NCBI GenBank assembly: GCA_016931255.1
Contig: JAFGFG010000001.1
Span: forward strand, 94,961 to 150,048
Source: Candidatus Aenigmatarchaeota archaeon
GTDB lineage: Archaea > Aenigmatarchaeota > Aenigmatarchaeia > QMZP01 > JAFGSV01
Reading direction: 5' to 3'
Length of the DNA: 55,088 nucleotides
This document shows positions 8,324 through 55,088 of the stretch, piece after piece. Each line of letters opens with the position of its first letter. The stretch's first letter is position 1. The translations under genes and the position numbers were made by a program. Below the pieces are notes generated by a model. That model did not search any database, had not been told where the DNA came from, and saw only the letters and a program-made list of their open reading frames with translations.

Positions 8324-8655
8324 CAGGAATGATATTCACCCCCGCGGGATACTGGAACCCCATTGTATGGGTGGCTGTTGTAATCATAGCTTCAGTGATA
8401 GTATTCATGCTCAGGTCAACCGGAAGAAAGACATTCAAGAATGGTGCCCAGCAGATACCTTTCTACTCCGGAAACGAAGCCCCAAGAGGTCATATAAAGG
8501 CATCAAACATGTACTGGGGTTTCTTTGAGAGCCTTGAGAAGTACTACATTTGGCTGCGAAAGATGCACACAGGTATAATCAATGATTACGTATATTTCCT
8601 TGTCATTGTCATAGTCATACTGATGGCAGCGCTTGCATTGGGAGGATTGCTATGA
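8320..8655 (+). CDS. mbhI: Membrane-bound hydrogenase subunit I
   Basis: 111 residues with one membrane helix near each end and a polar middle that contains NMYWGFFESLEKYY, typical of MbhI, which bridges the antiporter module and the hydrogenase module. Overlaps mbhH and mbhJ by 4 nt each. Confidence 0.82.
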   Translation: MTGMIFTPAGYWNPIVWVAVVIIASVIVFMLRSTGRKTFKNGAQQIPFYSGNEAPRGHIKASNMYWGFFESLEKYYIWLRKMHTGIINDYVYFLVIVIVILMAALALGGLL

Positions 8656-10700
8656 AGGCAAAGACGCTGAACAGGTCGCTCTGGGTATTCCATGTGAATA
8701 CAGGAAGCTGCCTCCCACCCGAATCAGAAATCATACTTGGAGATGGAAGAATTACAGGAATAGGAGAATTCGTTGATGGGCATCTGACAGATCCAGGAAT
8801 CAATGACATAACAACACAAAGGAAACATAAAGTGCTGTCCTGGAATTCATATTCACCCGCATTCAAAGATATACTTCAAGTACACAGGCTTAAATCACCT
8901 GAAAAACTAGTCACTGTAAAGACTCTCGCAGGCGAATCTCTCAGAATGACACCGGATCATAAGGTACTTGTGGACGGACTGAATGGTACAGAATGGATAG
9001 AAGCAAAGGATCTGAAAGTGGGGTGTCACATTTATTCGCCTTCGTCAATTGAAGTAGATGAATATATTCCCTCTATCATAGATTTGGTTTCCGATCATTA
9101 TGTCGCTACTATCCCTGAAGAAATAAGGTCGTCACTGAAGAAGAAACTCACGAAAAAATTCAGTACGCTTGCCAATGCCTCGCGCACGCTTGGAATAGAC
9201 ATGATAAGGATTGGTTCAAAACATAGATCATTATCCATCGGGGAACTCAAGAAGATAGCAGAATGCATTAACATAAATTGGAAAGATATATCCGGATCCG
9301 TAACTAGGATCTCAGGGAAAAATTTCGTGTATGATATCAAGAAAATGGAAGTCGATTCAGATTTCATGAGGATGATGGGACTCGTGGCATCTGATGGCTG
9401 GATAATGCGCATAAAAGATAACGGTCATGCAAACTACCAGATAAACTTCTCGAATACGTCTGATGAACTGATAAATGATTTCGTTCGCTGCTGCAAATCA
9501 TGGACTGACGGAAATTTCATGAAAGAAGAGAAGAACGGCGTCAAGAAAGTCTACACATACAGTCCGGTATTGGTAAACATAGCACAATCACTGGGATTGA
9601 AGGTGACAGGGAAGGATGCAGATTTGAGGCCAATATTCAGACTACCTAAAAAACTTATTGCGTCTTTCCTTTCGGGTTACTTCGACGGAGACGGATCAAT
9701 CCATTTCTTAAGAGAGGAAAACAGAAAGAGAGTGGGAATATGTTTCACTACCGCTAATGCTAGAACCGCAGACCAGATACGCCTTCTGCTGAAGAGATTG
9801 GGAATAAGGACACGGACATACAACCATATCGCCAGAAGCTCATTTTCAGATTGCAGACTTTACAAAATAAACATAACATCTCAGTCAGATATCAAAAGAT
9901 TCCTTGACATTATTAAATTCAGACATCCGAAAAAAGTGGGAATAATAAAATCTGCCATGTCCATTATGGCAAAAAGTAAAAAGAAACAGTCACTCCACGA
10001 AAGAGCACCGCTTGTATGCGGCAAGATCATAAAAATGATGAGGCAGAAGCACGGAATTAAACAATCTGATATATCTGGAATAGATTATATGCCGATGATA
10101 GAAGGACAGAAGAGAAGGTTCCAGAAGACAACAATCATGAATGTCATCAAGTCGCTCAAATCTAATGGATGTGACAATTTATCTGAAATTGAAAATTTGG
10201 TATCTGACAGTTTTTATCTGGACTCTGTCAAAGAAGTCAAAATTGTCAAATCTGATACAAAATGGGTATATAACATCACTGTAGATGAAAGTCATTCATT
10301 CATACCTAACGGTGGCTTCGTAGTCAAGAACTGCAACGGATGCGACATAGAAATAGTCGCGGCGCTGACACCGAGGTATGATGTCGAGAGGTTCGGCATG
10401 AAGCTCGTCGGAAGCCCCAGACATGCTGACGTTCTTCTGGTGACAGGACCTGTCACACGGGACATGAAGAAGAAGCTGAAGCTTGTGTATGACCAGACGC
10501 CTGACCCGAAGGTTGTCATGTCCGTAGGTAACTGCGGAAACAGTACAGGAGTCTTTTATGAATCTTATAATATCGAAGGCCCAATAGACAGGATAGTTCC
10601 TGTTGATGTTTATGTCAAGGGTTGCCCTCCGAGGCCGGAGGCTATAATCGACGGAGTCGTGAAGGCATGGAAGAAGCTTGAGGAGCTTGGAAAGAAATGA
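8652..10700 (+). CDS. mbhJ: Membrane-bound hydrogenase small subunit J (NuoB-like), precursor with intein
   Basis: The 682-residue precursor contains a 141-residue NuoB-like protein split by a 541-residue intein. The exteins are residues 1-19 (ending HVNTGS) and 561-682 (starting CNGCDIE). Joined, they give the GSCNGCDIE motif of the [4Fe-4S] small subunit, followed by VGNCG and VKGCPPRP with the other ligands. The mature protein passes electrons to the [NiFe] site of MbhL. The frame is intact throughout, so splicing would restore a full protein. Because the insertion point is the first cluster cysteine, no working cluster can form before splicing (inference). Confidence 0.93.
   Translation: MKAKTLNRSLWVFHVNTGSCLPPESEIILGDGRITGIGEFVDGHLTDPGINDITTQRKHKVLSWNSYSPAFKDILQVHRLKSPEKLVTVKTLAGESLRMTPDHKVLVDGLNGTEWIEAKDLKVGCHIYSPSSIEVDEYIPSIIDLVSDHYVATIPEEIRSSLKKKLTKKFSTLANASRTLGIDMIRIGSKHRSLSIGELKKIAECININWKDISGSVTRISGKNFVYDIKKMEVDSDFMRMMGLVASDGWIMRIKDNGHANYQINFSNTSDELINDFVRCCKSWTDGNFMKEEKNGVKKVYTYSPVLVNIAQSLGLKVTGKDADLRPIFRLPKKLIASFLSGYFDGDGSIHFLREENRKRVGICFTTANARTADQIRLLLKRLGIRTRTYNHIARSSFSDCRLYKINITSQSDIKRFLDIIKFRHPKKVGIIKSAMSIMAKSKKKQSLHERAPLVCGKIIKMMRQKHGIKQSDISGIDYMPMIEGQKRRFQKTTIMNVIKSLKSNGCDNLSEIENLVSDSFYLDSVKEVKIVKSDTKWVYNITVDESHSFIPNGGFVVKNCNGCDIEIVAALTPRYDVERFGMKLVGSPRHADVLLVTGPVTRDMKKKLKLVYDQTPDPKVVMSVGNCGNSTGVFYESYNIEGPIDRIVPVDVYVKGCPPRPEAIIDGVVKAWKKLEELGKK
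8709..10331 (+). mobile_element. Intein with LAGLIDADG homing endonuclease in MbhJ
   Basis: 541 residues, from the catalytic Cys1 (CLPPESEIILGDG, block A) to the C-terminal Asn (VVKN, block G), followed by the extein cysteine. Block B is MTPDHKVLV with the conserved T-x-x-H; block F is VYNITVDESHSFIPNGG. Two endonuclease motifs are seen: MMGLVASDGWI near residue 240 and FLSGYFDGDGSIHF near residue 340 of the precursor, with Asp in both. Helix-turn-helix-like segments flank the second motif. The penultimate residue is Lys, not the usual His. Codons are somewhat more AT-rich than in the exteins, which fits recent mobility. Confidence 0.94.
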
Positions 10701-49292: not shown

Positions 49293-50012
49293 ATGAAAGC
49301 TCTCTATATGACAGATTCCTATCTTAGGGAATTCGAGGCAACCGTCATGAAGGTTACGGACGGAAAATTCGTGGTGCTCGACAAAACTGCATTCTATCCC
49401 AACGCAGGAGGCCAGCCTTACGACACAGGAAAGATGACCAGGCTTTCGGACAGCGCTGCTTTTGACGTCGTGTTCGTCGGGAAGTTCGGCGGCGAGATAA
49501 GCCACGAGGTGAAAGCCTGCGGGCCTGACCAGATAAACGAGGGCGATACATTCAGATGCGAGATAGACTGGGACCGCAGGTACAAGCACATGAGGTCGCA
49601 TACGGCGTCCCATATAATAAGCGGAATAATAAACGAAAGGACAGGCGCGCTGATAACAGGCAACCAAATATCATCTGACAGGACGAGAATAGACTTCTCG
49701 CTCGATGATTATGACCCCTCGGTCATGGACAGCTTCGTGAAAGAAGCCAGCGAAAAGGCTGCAAAGGGCGCGGATGTGGAGGTCTCTTTCATAACGCGGG
49801 AAGACGCGGAGAAAGAGGAAAGCCTTTCAAAGCTCGCAAAAGGTCTTCCGCCGGGGATAAAAGAGATACGCATAGTCGACATAAAGGGTATAGACAGACA
49901 GGCTGACGGCGGCACGCACGTGAAGAACACGAAAGAGATAGGCCCCATAAAGCTCCTGAAATGCGAGAACAAAGGAAAGAACAACCGCAGGCTGTACTTC
50001 TCTATCGAGTAG
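49293..50012 (+). CDS. alaX: Alanyl-tRNA editing protein AlaX
   Basis: 239 residues: N-terminal glycine-rich barrel (FYPNAGGQPYDTG) and editing domain with HTASH (H103, H107) and GGTHVKNTKEIG. Hydrolyses Ser-tRNA(Ala). The residue before GGTH is Asp, where many family members have the zinc-ligand Cys. TATA TTTTTTATAATC is 26 nt upstream of the ATG. Confidence 0.92.
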   Translation: MKALYMTDSYLREFEATVMKVTDGKFVVLDKTAFYPNAGGQPYDTGKMTRLSDSAAFDVVFVGKFGGEISHEVKACGPDQINEGDTFRCEIDWDRRYKHMRSHTASHIISGIINERTGALITGNQISSDRTRIDFSLDDYDPSVMDSFVKEASEKAAKGADVEVSFITREDAEKEESLSKLAKGLPPGIKEIRIVDIKGIDRQADGGTHVKNTKEIGPIKLLKCENKGKNNRRLYFSIE

Positions 50013-52659: not shown

Positions 52660-52956
52660 TCCTATATTGGTACTAATCCAGTATTTTTTTATCTATAGGT
52701 GAAGAGAATATCTGCATAGAAAAATATTTGATTATTATCTTATAAGGTTATACTGTACAACTTGAAATCTCGAGTATTCTGGACGGATAATAATAAGTTA
52801 TCCGTTCCTTAAGGGAGCCTGAAGTGGTTACGGATAATATACCCATCGGTGTTCTGCGAGCTGACGAGACATGATACATTACGCCCACTGAAAGAATAAG
52901 TGATGCTGTGTAAGATATTCGAACCAGCATTCGAACCCGCTATATACTAATGTTGT
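52660..52956. other. AT-rich gap with remnant-like reading frames
   Basis: No convincing gene. A 60-codon minus-strand frame at 52748-52930 starts inside the 56-bp repeat (MLVRISYTA) but shows no recognisable domain; the second repeat copy begins the same peptide and then stops. This suggests duplicated 5' sequence and remnants of a mobile element. Confidence 0.4.
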
Positions 52957-52958
52957 TT
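52903..52958. repeat. 56-bp direct repeat flanking fic, left copy
   Basis: Nearly identical (53-54 of 56) to 54155-54210, in the same orientation. It contains ATTCGAACC twice, 12 bp apart. It ends inside the Fic stop codon. The complement GGTTCGAAT resembles the tRNA T loop, so it could be an attachment site. Confidence 0.7.
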
Positions 52959-53898
52959 AATTCACCCCTGATTTAAATGTATGTTGTTCCATCAGCACTT
53001 TGGCAATGTAATGCACCATTGCTTCATCATTGCCCTTATCCCCTTCTTCAACCGCATCATAATACTTGATTTTATCTCTTAATTCTATAAAGAACATCGG
53101 GAAGTTGTTCTTCATCAATATCCAGTTCATTATAACTCTTGACGTTCTCCCATTCCCGTCAGCAAACGGGTGAATCCTGACTAATTTATTATGCAAGATT
53201 GCACCCAATTCAACGGGGTGCAGTTTCTTTCTAGTAGAATAGTACCACTGGAAAATTCTTCTCATTTCTTCTTTAACCTTTTCATGAGTCGGAGGGATCC
53301 ATTCCGAACCAGAAATCCTGACTTCATGATCCCTATAGCTGCCTACAATCTTGCAGTTAGTGTTTTTAGTGAGAAGTTCATGAATTTTCAGTAAAAACTT
53401 CTGATTAAATTCGCCCCCATACTCCTTCATAAATTCATAACAGTCCTTTGAGTTTATGGCTTCATTGTAATCGTTGGGGGTAGCACCAGCGGGAATAACG
53501 TTCTCTGTTAAAATCATGCTTGTTTCACGAAGGCTTAAACGGTTGCCTTCAATAGCATTTGTGTTGTATGTGAATCTCACAACAAAATCTTCTTCATACT
53601 TCTTCTTTCCAACAGCACCTAATTTTCCGTACCACTCCTTAAAGACCTCTTTCAAATCCTGCAATTTCTCTGCTTCTTCATTGCTCAAATAAGCATATTT
53701 AGAAGCAGGCTTCATGAGGCCTTTTTTCAACGCTTCTTTTTCAATCTCTACAACAGCCTTCTTTGTCTGCTCTTTTGTGGGGGGCTTGTCACCAACATAT
53801 TTTCTTATTTTCTTCCACTTCTTATCACTAGTCCTGAAGTTCTTTGTGACATAATAATATGTCTTGCTTCCCCGTTCAATCTTTTCTAAATAAACCAT
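52957..53898 (-). CDS. Fic-domain protein (AMPylase-type) with inhibitory helix
   Basis: 313 residues. The Fic motif HPFADGNGRTSR is at about 241-252 with the catalytic His, and the N-terminal inhibitory helix TNAIEGN (T113, E117) is intact, which makes it an autoinhibited class II Fic. Such enzymes add AMP or another group to proteins. A basic N-terminal region (residues 1-65) may bind nucleic acid or a partner. AT-rich, between direct repeats, with GGGCACA boxes before it. Confidence 0.92.
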   Translation of the reverse strand: MVYLEKIERGSKTYYYVTKNFRTSDKKWKKIRKYVGDKPPTKEQTKKAVVEIEKEALKKGLMKPASKYAYLSNEEAEKLQDLKEVFKEWYGKLGAVGKKKYEEDFVVRFTYNTNAIEGNRLSLRETSMILTENVIPAGATPNDYNEAINSKDCYEFMKEYGGEFNQKFLLKIHELLTKNTNCKIVGSYRDHEVRISGSEWIPPTHEKVKEEMRRIFQWYYSTRKKLHPVELGAILHNKLVRIHPFADGNGRTSRVIMNWILMKNNFPMFFIELRDKIKYYDAVEEGDKGNDEAMVHYIAKVLMEQHTFKSGVN

Positions 53899-54154
53899 AT
53901 GTATTGTATGGGCACAAGAATATATAAAGTTATTGTTTTTTGTTATGATTTTGTGCCCTTATATTCTGATATTTGCCTTATTTATGTGGGCACATAAATA
54001 TACAAATACTTTTAATTCTGTTTTATATTGTGCCCGTAATATGTGGGATTTCCTTGCAAAATAGGTGGCAAGTGTAAATTCCTGTTTCCCTGCCTTCTTT
54101 TCACCTATAAAGACTGTATTTGCCCCCATAGACCTTCTTACTCATTGCGCATTA
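53899..54154. promoter_or_regulatory. fic upstream region with four GGGCACA boxes
   Basis: GGGCACA occurs at 53910-53916 (+), 53952-53958 (-), 53988-53994 (+) and 54029-54035 (-), forming two inverted pairs of 49 and 48 bp. The first box lies between the minus-strand TATA (CTTTATATATTC) and the fic ATG, an ideal place for repression. The rest of the gap is AT-rich without a supported gene. Confidence 0.6.
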
Positions 54155-54210
54155 ATGCTGTGTATGATATTCGAACCAGCATTCGAACCCGCTATATATT
54201 AATGTTGTTA
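54155..54210. repeat. 56-bp direct repeat flanking fic, right copy
   Basis: Second copy of 52903-52958. It ends six bases before the first CRISPR repeat, so the array's leader-distal end lies at this boundary. Confidence 0.7.
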
Positions 54211-54216
54211 AATATC

Positions 54217-55088
54217 ATCTACAATAGTAGAAATTAAAGCATGCTTCTAGACAACCGTTTCCCTCATGCTATTTGTGTGAATCTACAATAGTAGAAATTA
54301 AAGCATGCTTCTAGACTTAGTTGGACCTGACGTCACAAATATTACATCTACAATAGTAGAAATTAAAGCATGCTTCTAGACCGAAAGATGTAGTCTGGCA
54401 GGACCTATTATCTACAATAGTAGAAATTAAAGCATGCTTCTAGACCGAAAAACAACTCGCCAAGTTGAAACATCTACAATAGTAGAAATTAAAGCATGCT
54501 TCTAGACCCTGATGTATGAACATCCCTGAAGATCAATCTACAATAGTAGAAATTAAAGCATGCTTCTAGACCTGTGACAGGTTCGGTGATATTCAGGATA
54601 TCTACAATAGTAGAAATTAAAGCATGCTTCTAGACTCATACATACGAACGTCTACACTATGTCTATCTACAATAGTAGAAATTAAAGCATGCTTCTAGAC
54701 AAGTGTCATGTTATCACGCTGTCAGTTTGATCTACAATAGTAGAAATTAAAGCATGCTTCTAGACTGAAGTCATAAAACAACGTGACTATGTTATCTACA
54801 ATAGTAGAAATTAAAGCATGCTTCTAGACGATAAAGAAATTTTATATTCCCGAACTGATCTACAATAGTAGAAATTAAAGCATGCTTCTAGACATCATGT
54901 AAGCGGCAACTTCCGGTACTAGCGATCTACAATAGTAGAAATTAAAGCATGCTTCTAGACCCACCGAGTAGTTGATATTTATGAAATGATCTACAATAGT
55001 AGAAATTAAAGCATGCTTCTAGACCTTCGATACCATTCTTATCACCGTCTTATCTACAATAGTAGAAATTAAAGCATGCTTCTAGACC
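54217..55088 (-). CRISPR. CRISPR array with Cas12a (type V-A) repeats, 14 repeats visible, continues past the window
   Basis: Fourteen identical 36-bp repeats start at 54217, 54281, 54346, 54410, 54472, 54536, 54600, 54665, 54730, 54794, 54858, 54925, 54989 and 55052. The 13 complete spacers are 26-31 nt and all different. On the plus strand the repeat begins ATCTACAATAGTAGAAATT and ends AAAGCATGCTTCTAGAC. On the minus strand it starts GTCTAGAAGCATGC and ends AATTTCTACTATTGTAGAT, the Cas12a crRNA handle (stem TCTAC/GTAGA, loop TATT). Therefore it is transcribed leftward, with the leader beyond the right edge. The last repeat on the left is not degenerate. Confidence 0.97.

Follow-up and report, generated by a model that had tools for sequence, protein, structure and literature searches.

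A fic gene beside a Cas12a CRISPR array is probably cargo of a small mobile cassette docking at tRNA genes in DPANN archaea

Comparative analysis of 55,088 nucleotides from a Candidatus Aenigmatarchaeota archaeon (contig JAFGFG010000001.1, positions 94,961 to 150,048; hereafter the window) indicated that its fic region probably belongs to a family of small cassettes in DPANN archaea, mobile but non-autonomous, which would rely on a recombinase supplied in trans, dock at tRNA genes or at the end of an earlier cassette, and stack in tandem. The units are laid out as endB, cargo and endA, directly following either the 3' end of a tRNA gene or the endA of another cassette, and the two ends are conserved while the cargo differs by unit.

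Two 59-nt direct repeats in the same orientation (52903-52961 and 54155-54213; 95% identical, 1252 nt from start to start) enclose fic and its promoter region, in agreement with the original prediction of near-identical repeats about 1.25 kb apart. The proposed search for further copies in the source genome (929,379 bases, 9 contigs) returned only these two, and the 35-nt core of the repeat had 0 matches in 100 shuffles. Each copy contains ATTCGAACC twice, and its complement GGTTCGAAT is a T-loop motif; the likeness to a tRNA T loop pointed out earlier was confirmed and reaches further, extending to the pattern GGTTCRAAT-N10-GCA, which in tRNA genes spans the T-loop to the 3' end with spacing identical to that of endA. 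This pattern was found twice in the window compared to 0.03 expected, only at the two repeats.

The repeats had been taken as the left and right ends of one integrated cassette, possibly inserted at the trailing end of the CRISPR array; the fic region did hold up as an integrated cassette and the right repeat does lie at the array's trailing end, but neither the pairing of the repeats nor an insertion into the array survived. A conserved endB was found to abut the right-hand repeat, so that the fic unit is endB(54150-54081)-fic-endA(52957-52903) and the right repeat belongs to another unit as its endA, each repeat being the 3' end of a separate cassette (Table 1). The repeats as both ends of a single fic cassette were accordingly rejected, the other end being endB, as was insertion of fic into the array: the right repeat closes the CRISPR cassette as its endA, behind which the fic cassette is therefore docked. 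The segment joining the two units carries the palindrome GCATTAATGC.

The Fic active-site motif HPFADGNGRTSR is intact, matching HxFxDGNGRxxR, and a TNAIEGN motif is present, placing the predicted fic product among Fic domain proteins of the Fic/Doc family. Several inverted GTGCCC/GGGCAC motifs lie at 53890-54045 and likewise upstream of fic in two related genomes (G004 and G027; L002, L003), possibly as the operator of a self-regulated gene. Elsewhere in the window, a gene for a hydrogenase/NADH-dehydrogenase-like small subunit (8652-10700) carries an apparent large in-frame insertion with an intein-like start (C..GSCLPPESEI) and end (VVKNCNGCD), which is probably an intein.

Table 1. Features of the fic cassette, the preceding Cas12a cassette and their flanks. 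Positions are those of the window unless contig C5 of the same genome is given.
Feature	Position	Strand	Basis or remark
AlaX-like gene, synteny anchor in left flank	49293..50012	+	puts left flank of window beside HerA-tRNA of C5
Cassette/flank junction of fic cassette	52903
endA of fic cassette, T-loop-mimic docking end (AACAACATTAGTATATAGCGGGTTCGAATGCTGGTTCGAATATCTTACACAGCAT)	52903..52957	-	25 sites, 19 genomes; G004 homology stops here
fic, cargo, 313 aa	52957..53898	-	PF02661 4.6e-23
Region upstream of fic, inverted GTGCCC/GGGCAC motifs, putative promoter/operator	53899..54080	-	sequence
endB of fic cassette (GCGCAATGAGTAAGAAGGTCTATGGGGGCAAATACAGTCTTTATAGGTGAAAAGAAGGCAGGGAAACAGG)	54081..54150	-	conserved on the tRNA side of cassettes from several genomes
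TTAAT joining segment, CRISPR endA (..ACAGCA) to fic endB (GCGCAATGAG..)	54151..54155	-	sequence
endA of preceding Cas12a/CRISPR cassette	54155..54209	-	repeat comparison, endA profile, GGTTCRAAT-N10-GCA pattern
CRISPR array, leader-distal part, Cas12a-type, 14 repeats and 13 spacers in window	54218..55088	-	contig ends inside
tRNA	C5:68592-68743		Rfam tRNA match; intron-bearing
endB of Cas12a cassette	C5:68747-68810		starts 3 nt after tRNA
Nucleotidyltransferase gene	C5:69027-69641		Cas12a cassette cargo; pairs with HEPN
HEPN gene	C5:69638-70174		Cas12a cassette cargo
cas12a	C5:70171-74046		Cas12a cassette cargo
cas4	C5:~74034-74597		Cas12a cassette cargo
cas1	C5:74591-75565		Cas12a cassette cargo
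cas2	C5:75562-75834		Cas12a cassette cargo
Array start on contig C5	from C5:~76062

The array begins 4 nt past the right repeat copy and, on the minus strand, consists of Cas12a-type repeats (GTCTAGAAGCATGCTTTAATTTCTACTATTGTAGAT), so that position 54218 is its leader-distal end. The same CRISPR repeat was identified elsewhere in the genome only at the end of contig C5, in an orientation fitting continuation of the array, and the leader and cas2 of the array lie on that contig. By gene content (cas12a, cas4-cas1-cas2 and Cas12a-type repeats) the cargo is a Type V-A CRISPR-Cas system. Common array repeats and synteny were used to join contigs C5 and C7, giving an inferred order of tRNA, endB-(HEPN pair, Cas12a system, array)-endA, endB-(fic)-endA and left flank. 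The neighbors HerA, tRNA and AlaX are split between C5 and C7 in the source genome (G000), and in a genome of the same genus (G001) a HerA homologue, the same intron-bearing tRNA and an AlaX homologue span no more than 4.3 kb of a single contig, and neither endA nor endB is present in this region. This synteny without a cassette supports the C5-C7 join and identifies G001 as an empty site; the original prediction had proposed a search of related genomes for empty sites with one repeat copy. The spacers of the array gave no matches among the loci collected in the study. A gene of ~45 aa, ribbon-helix-helix-like by eye, lies convergently beside endB in the Cas12a cassette (L042 ~2840-2975) and in a cassette of another genome (L132, G176:C17), and the fic cassettes retain its apparent last codons (GGAATTTCCTTGCAAAATAG).

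Model searches with a sequence-only endA profile identified 25 endA sites across two archaeal phyla, with 10 sites in 8 of 156 Aenigmatarchaeota genomes and 15 sites in 11 of 87 Diapherotrites genomes (19 genomes in all). The exact endA core pattern matched five contigs among 84,980 species genomes, a scan that may not have covered the records of the window itself; all five came from archaea with the labels Aenigmatarchaeota, Diapherotrites or Nanoarchaeota. Searching for endA in viral contigs, phages and plasmids, and for fic and HNH cargo in viral contigs, was unproductive. At 18 of the 25 endA sites the unit is directly preceded by the 3' end of a tRNA gene in the same orientation, compared to a chance expectation that we estimate at ~3% with ~45 tRNA genes per Mb, and the gap from the tRNA end to endB, where present, is 2-9 nt. 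The fic unit of the window, docked behind another endA, is not among these 18, and the remaining sites were at contig edges (two), rearranged (L046), or without a recognizable tRNA (L044, L097); in L083 a transposase-like gene separates the unit from a tRNA-like 3' end ~2.8 kb upstream. Either endB or the upstream tRNA is missing from some units (L044, L046, L097 and the two at contig edges). Host tRNAs include Leu, Met, Gly, Ser and Glu, with Leu accounting for at least 11 of 19 docking tRNAs including that of L151 (P about 8e-7, assuming that 5 of 46 tRNAs are Leu). In the fic unit of L046 (G027:C17) the head of endB has been lost, and ~40 bp of the tRNA-Leu promoter region are duplicated, beside the unit and before tRNA-Leu, as if an upstream tRNA-Leu had been deleted.

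In the relatives, endA was found alone on one side of cargo such as fic (G004, G027), an ATPase (G040) and a small protein (G004), as well as beside an HNH endonuclease gene in a Diapherotrites genome, and the second conserved sequence, endB (GCGCAATGAG...CTTTATAGACGAAAAGAAGGCAGG), was located on the opposite side of the endA-bearing units. Cargo included fic, the Cas12a system, HNH, a metallo-beta-lactamase (MBL) fold, Asp/Glu racemase, DUF3795, OmdA, a ParE toxin with a small partner, a DUF4143-like ATPase (by eye), and unknowns, in units mostly of ~0.5-1.3 kb with the cargo oriented mostly in the direction of the tRNA. One unit (G176) contains an IS66-like transposase, probably a secondary insertion. 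A search with endB only retrieved a unit outside the building sets of both models, in which tRNA-Leu is followed by endB, a 46-aa ORF and endA (L151), an independent test that endB and endA belong together.

The fic units of the window and G004 share 88.6% nucleotide identity over 1277 bp, with up to 97% within fic and 95% amino acid identity of the Fic proteins, compared to 66% amino acid identity of HerA between these two genomes of different genera. The alignment stops exactly at ..ACACAGCAT of endA with unrelated flanks beyond, and at its other end extends only into the common T-loop/GCA signature. An HNH unit is likewise 86% identical at the DNA level between Diapherotrites and Aenigmatarchaeota. 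These alignments indicate that the units move between distant genomes, as the homology does not extend past the unit ends. The Fic of a unit in G242 (L094) is 29% identical to that of the window, which suggests that fic was captured by units more than once.

The aligned endA copies consist of a GGTTCRAAT-like motif, ten bases and a terminal GCA, with the exceptions of L093 (GAA) and L082 (one base short), and across the loci the exact pattern selects host tRNAs and endAs alike. That endA instead acts as an RNA signal, for 3' processing or termination of tRNA-cargo transcripts rather than in recombination, was considered barely credible; RNase Z would be expected to cleave at this T-loop-to-GCA geometry and the cargo lies downstream of a tRNA, but endA lacks a T-stem or tRNA-like fold, and such a signal leaves unexplained both the exact end of homology at endA between unrelated genomes and the tandem endA/endB junctions. 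A folded RNA or tRNA was likewise rejected for endA, which had no match in Rfam and displayed no covariation. For endB, a weak 9-bp hairpin (GTCTAT/ATAGAC) was identified with only one compensated pair. The tRNA-Leu genes of G004:C19 (L043, second tRNA-Leu) and G027 contain an intron-like insertion within the T-loop (GGTTCGAA), at the same spot that the cassettes mimic.

Units are positioned directly after the GCA (or GCG) of a tRNA or the GCA of an endA. In two loci (L088, L094) the tRNA ends in GCG and endA still in GCA, so the GCA is part of the unit and not a target duplication; target-site duplication was rejected, as the endA GCA does not follow the tRNA discriminator base. These observations also bear on casposon-like units moved by a Cas1-family integrase, a very unlikely explanation of the family. 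The 3' ends of tRNA-Leu genes are the target of the Methanosarcina mazei casposase, which requires CGCA together with tRNA sequence 12-17 bp upstream (PMC6977970), a type of target that endA mimics, and Leu tRNAs are over-used by the cassettes; against this, the 14-15 bp target duplication of casposons is absent and the endA GCA is kept at GCG tRNAs. Moreover, Cas1 scored above the cut-off in 3 of the 19 cassette-bearing genomes, leading to rejection of resident Cas1 as a general mover, and within the units cas1 was found only in the CRISPR unit.

Tandem endA/endB junctions were identified in the window and in G172 (L099/L136), and a tandem arrangement of small units sharing one 3' site is an integron trait. 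Integron gene cassettes, in which endA would be an attC site, share with the units the mostly co-oriented single cargo genes and a recombination site 3' of the cargo, and integrons with Aenigmatarchaeota attC sites were reported (PMC9668308). However, the RYYYAAC...GTTRRRY pair occurred in 1 of 24 endA windows per strand, no covariation supported an attC-like fold, and docking takes place at tRNA genes rather than at an attI beside intI. Identification of endA as attC was rejected on the consensus, and an origin as integron cassettes is extremely unlikely.

No recombinase gene was found inside any unit seen, and no integrase among the unit ORFs. Tyrosine recombinases (PF00589) were identified in 14 of the 19 cassette-bearing genomes, which are often incomplete, none of these recombinases being tied to cassettes, and some of their genes lie at tRNA 3' ends. 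One of these, a tyrosine integrase of ~406 aa in G004:C4 (L122 1230-2600; L127), is located at the 3' end of the intron-bearing tRNA of the Cas12a cassette, showing that this tRNA serves unrelated elements, and an integrase element in G176 is bounded by a classical 14-bp att repeat of the tRNA end. Such elements raise the alternative that the units are decayed tRNA-integrating islands, that is tyrosine-integrase elements that lost the integrase and in which endA is a degenerate attR. Besides these integrase genes and the 14-bp duplication, this reading is favored by a fic unit (L157 1483-2647, reverse strand, G128:C31) with endB and no clear endA, on whose far side 16 bp of the host tRNA 3' end are repeated (CCCGGCGGGGGCATTA), which may be a genuine att duplication or a leftover of an older element. 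L157 was the sole exception, as the host tRNA 3' end was not duplicated at the far end of the other units; endA is the same at Leu, Met, Gly, Ser and Glu tRNAs without a copy of the host acceptor sequence, and different single genes share the same ends in two phyla. The leaders of the tRNA-proximal integrase elements are also unlike endB, and this integrase family was rejected as owner of the cassette ends. Decayed islands are an unlikely source of the family.

In the favored model of mobile cassettes, a trans-acting site-specific recombinase, most likely a tyrosine recombinase, would recognize the tRNA T-loop and 3'-terminal GCA and recombine a circular cassette just after the GCA, leaving the tRNA intact. 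The left arm of the site would be any tRNA 3' end or endA and the right arm, in the incoming circle, endB, and the inserted unit would re-create the left arm at its far end. Since endA has GGTTCRAAT-N10-GCA at tRNA spacing, the docking site would be restored and tandem stacking made possible, which would explain the tandems of the window and G172: the Cas12a cassette would have docked behind the tRNA and the fic cassette behind the CRISPR cassette. The cargo may be transcribed from the tRNA, and the 16-bp tRNA-end duplication of L157 is an expected trace of site-specific recombination at tRNA 3' ends. Counting against this model, the segment from GCA to GCGCAAT varied from 2 to 8 nt, a range too wide for the fixed overlap of a single tyrosine recombinase, and fits none of the models considered. 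The broader proposal, of a gene-capture system new to archaea in which cassettes with one or a few genes dock at generic tRNA 3' ends, tRNA-end mimics regenerate docking sites and a dedicated trans recombinase collects defense and toxin genes in tandem across DPANN phyla, an entire Cas12a CRISPR-Cas system being the largest such cargo, is rated at an even chance; no published description of such cassettes was found in the open-access papers searched, and other papers may contain one. If true, small symbiotic (DPANN) archaea would possess an integron-like means of gene collection with tRNA genes as entry points, the arrival of a Cas12a CRISPR-Cas system as a mobile unit would be explained, and a recombination site would have spread by imitation of a universal cellular sequence. 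The short, well-defined ends allow the cargo to be catalogued over DPANN genomes.

Among known systems, the cas12a, cas4, cas1 and cas2 genes and the Cas12a-type repeat array resemble Type V-A CRISPR-Cas, which here is the cargo of a tRNA-docked cassette with a HEPN/nucleotidyltransferase pair. Family 2 casposons (PMC6977970) are similar in their tRNA-Leu 3' end target, (C)GCA and upstream tRNA sequence, whereas the mostly ~0.5-1.3 kb units lack a target duplication, Cas1-solo and PolB. The tRNA-targeting archaeal tyrosine-integrase elements of the SSV type and pT26-2 family (PMC8371274) also insert at tRNA 3' ends with the tRNA intact, can occur in tandem and use Leu and Ser tRNAs, but the units carry no integrase and, except for L157, have a constant mimic at the far end. 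Integron gene cassettes, including archaeal integrons (PMC9668308), share non-autonomous single-gene units, a 3' site, tandems and, under the favored model, a trans recombinase, compared to which no attC consensus or IntI was identified here and the sites are tRNA 3' ends of several isotypes and a tRNA-end mimic. The closest known systems are integron cassettes and tRNA-targeting islands, the unit working like an integron cassette without being classed as one.
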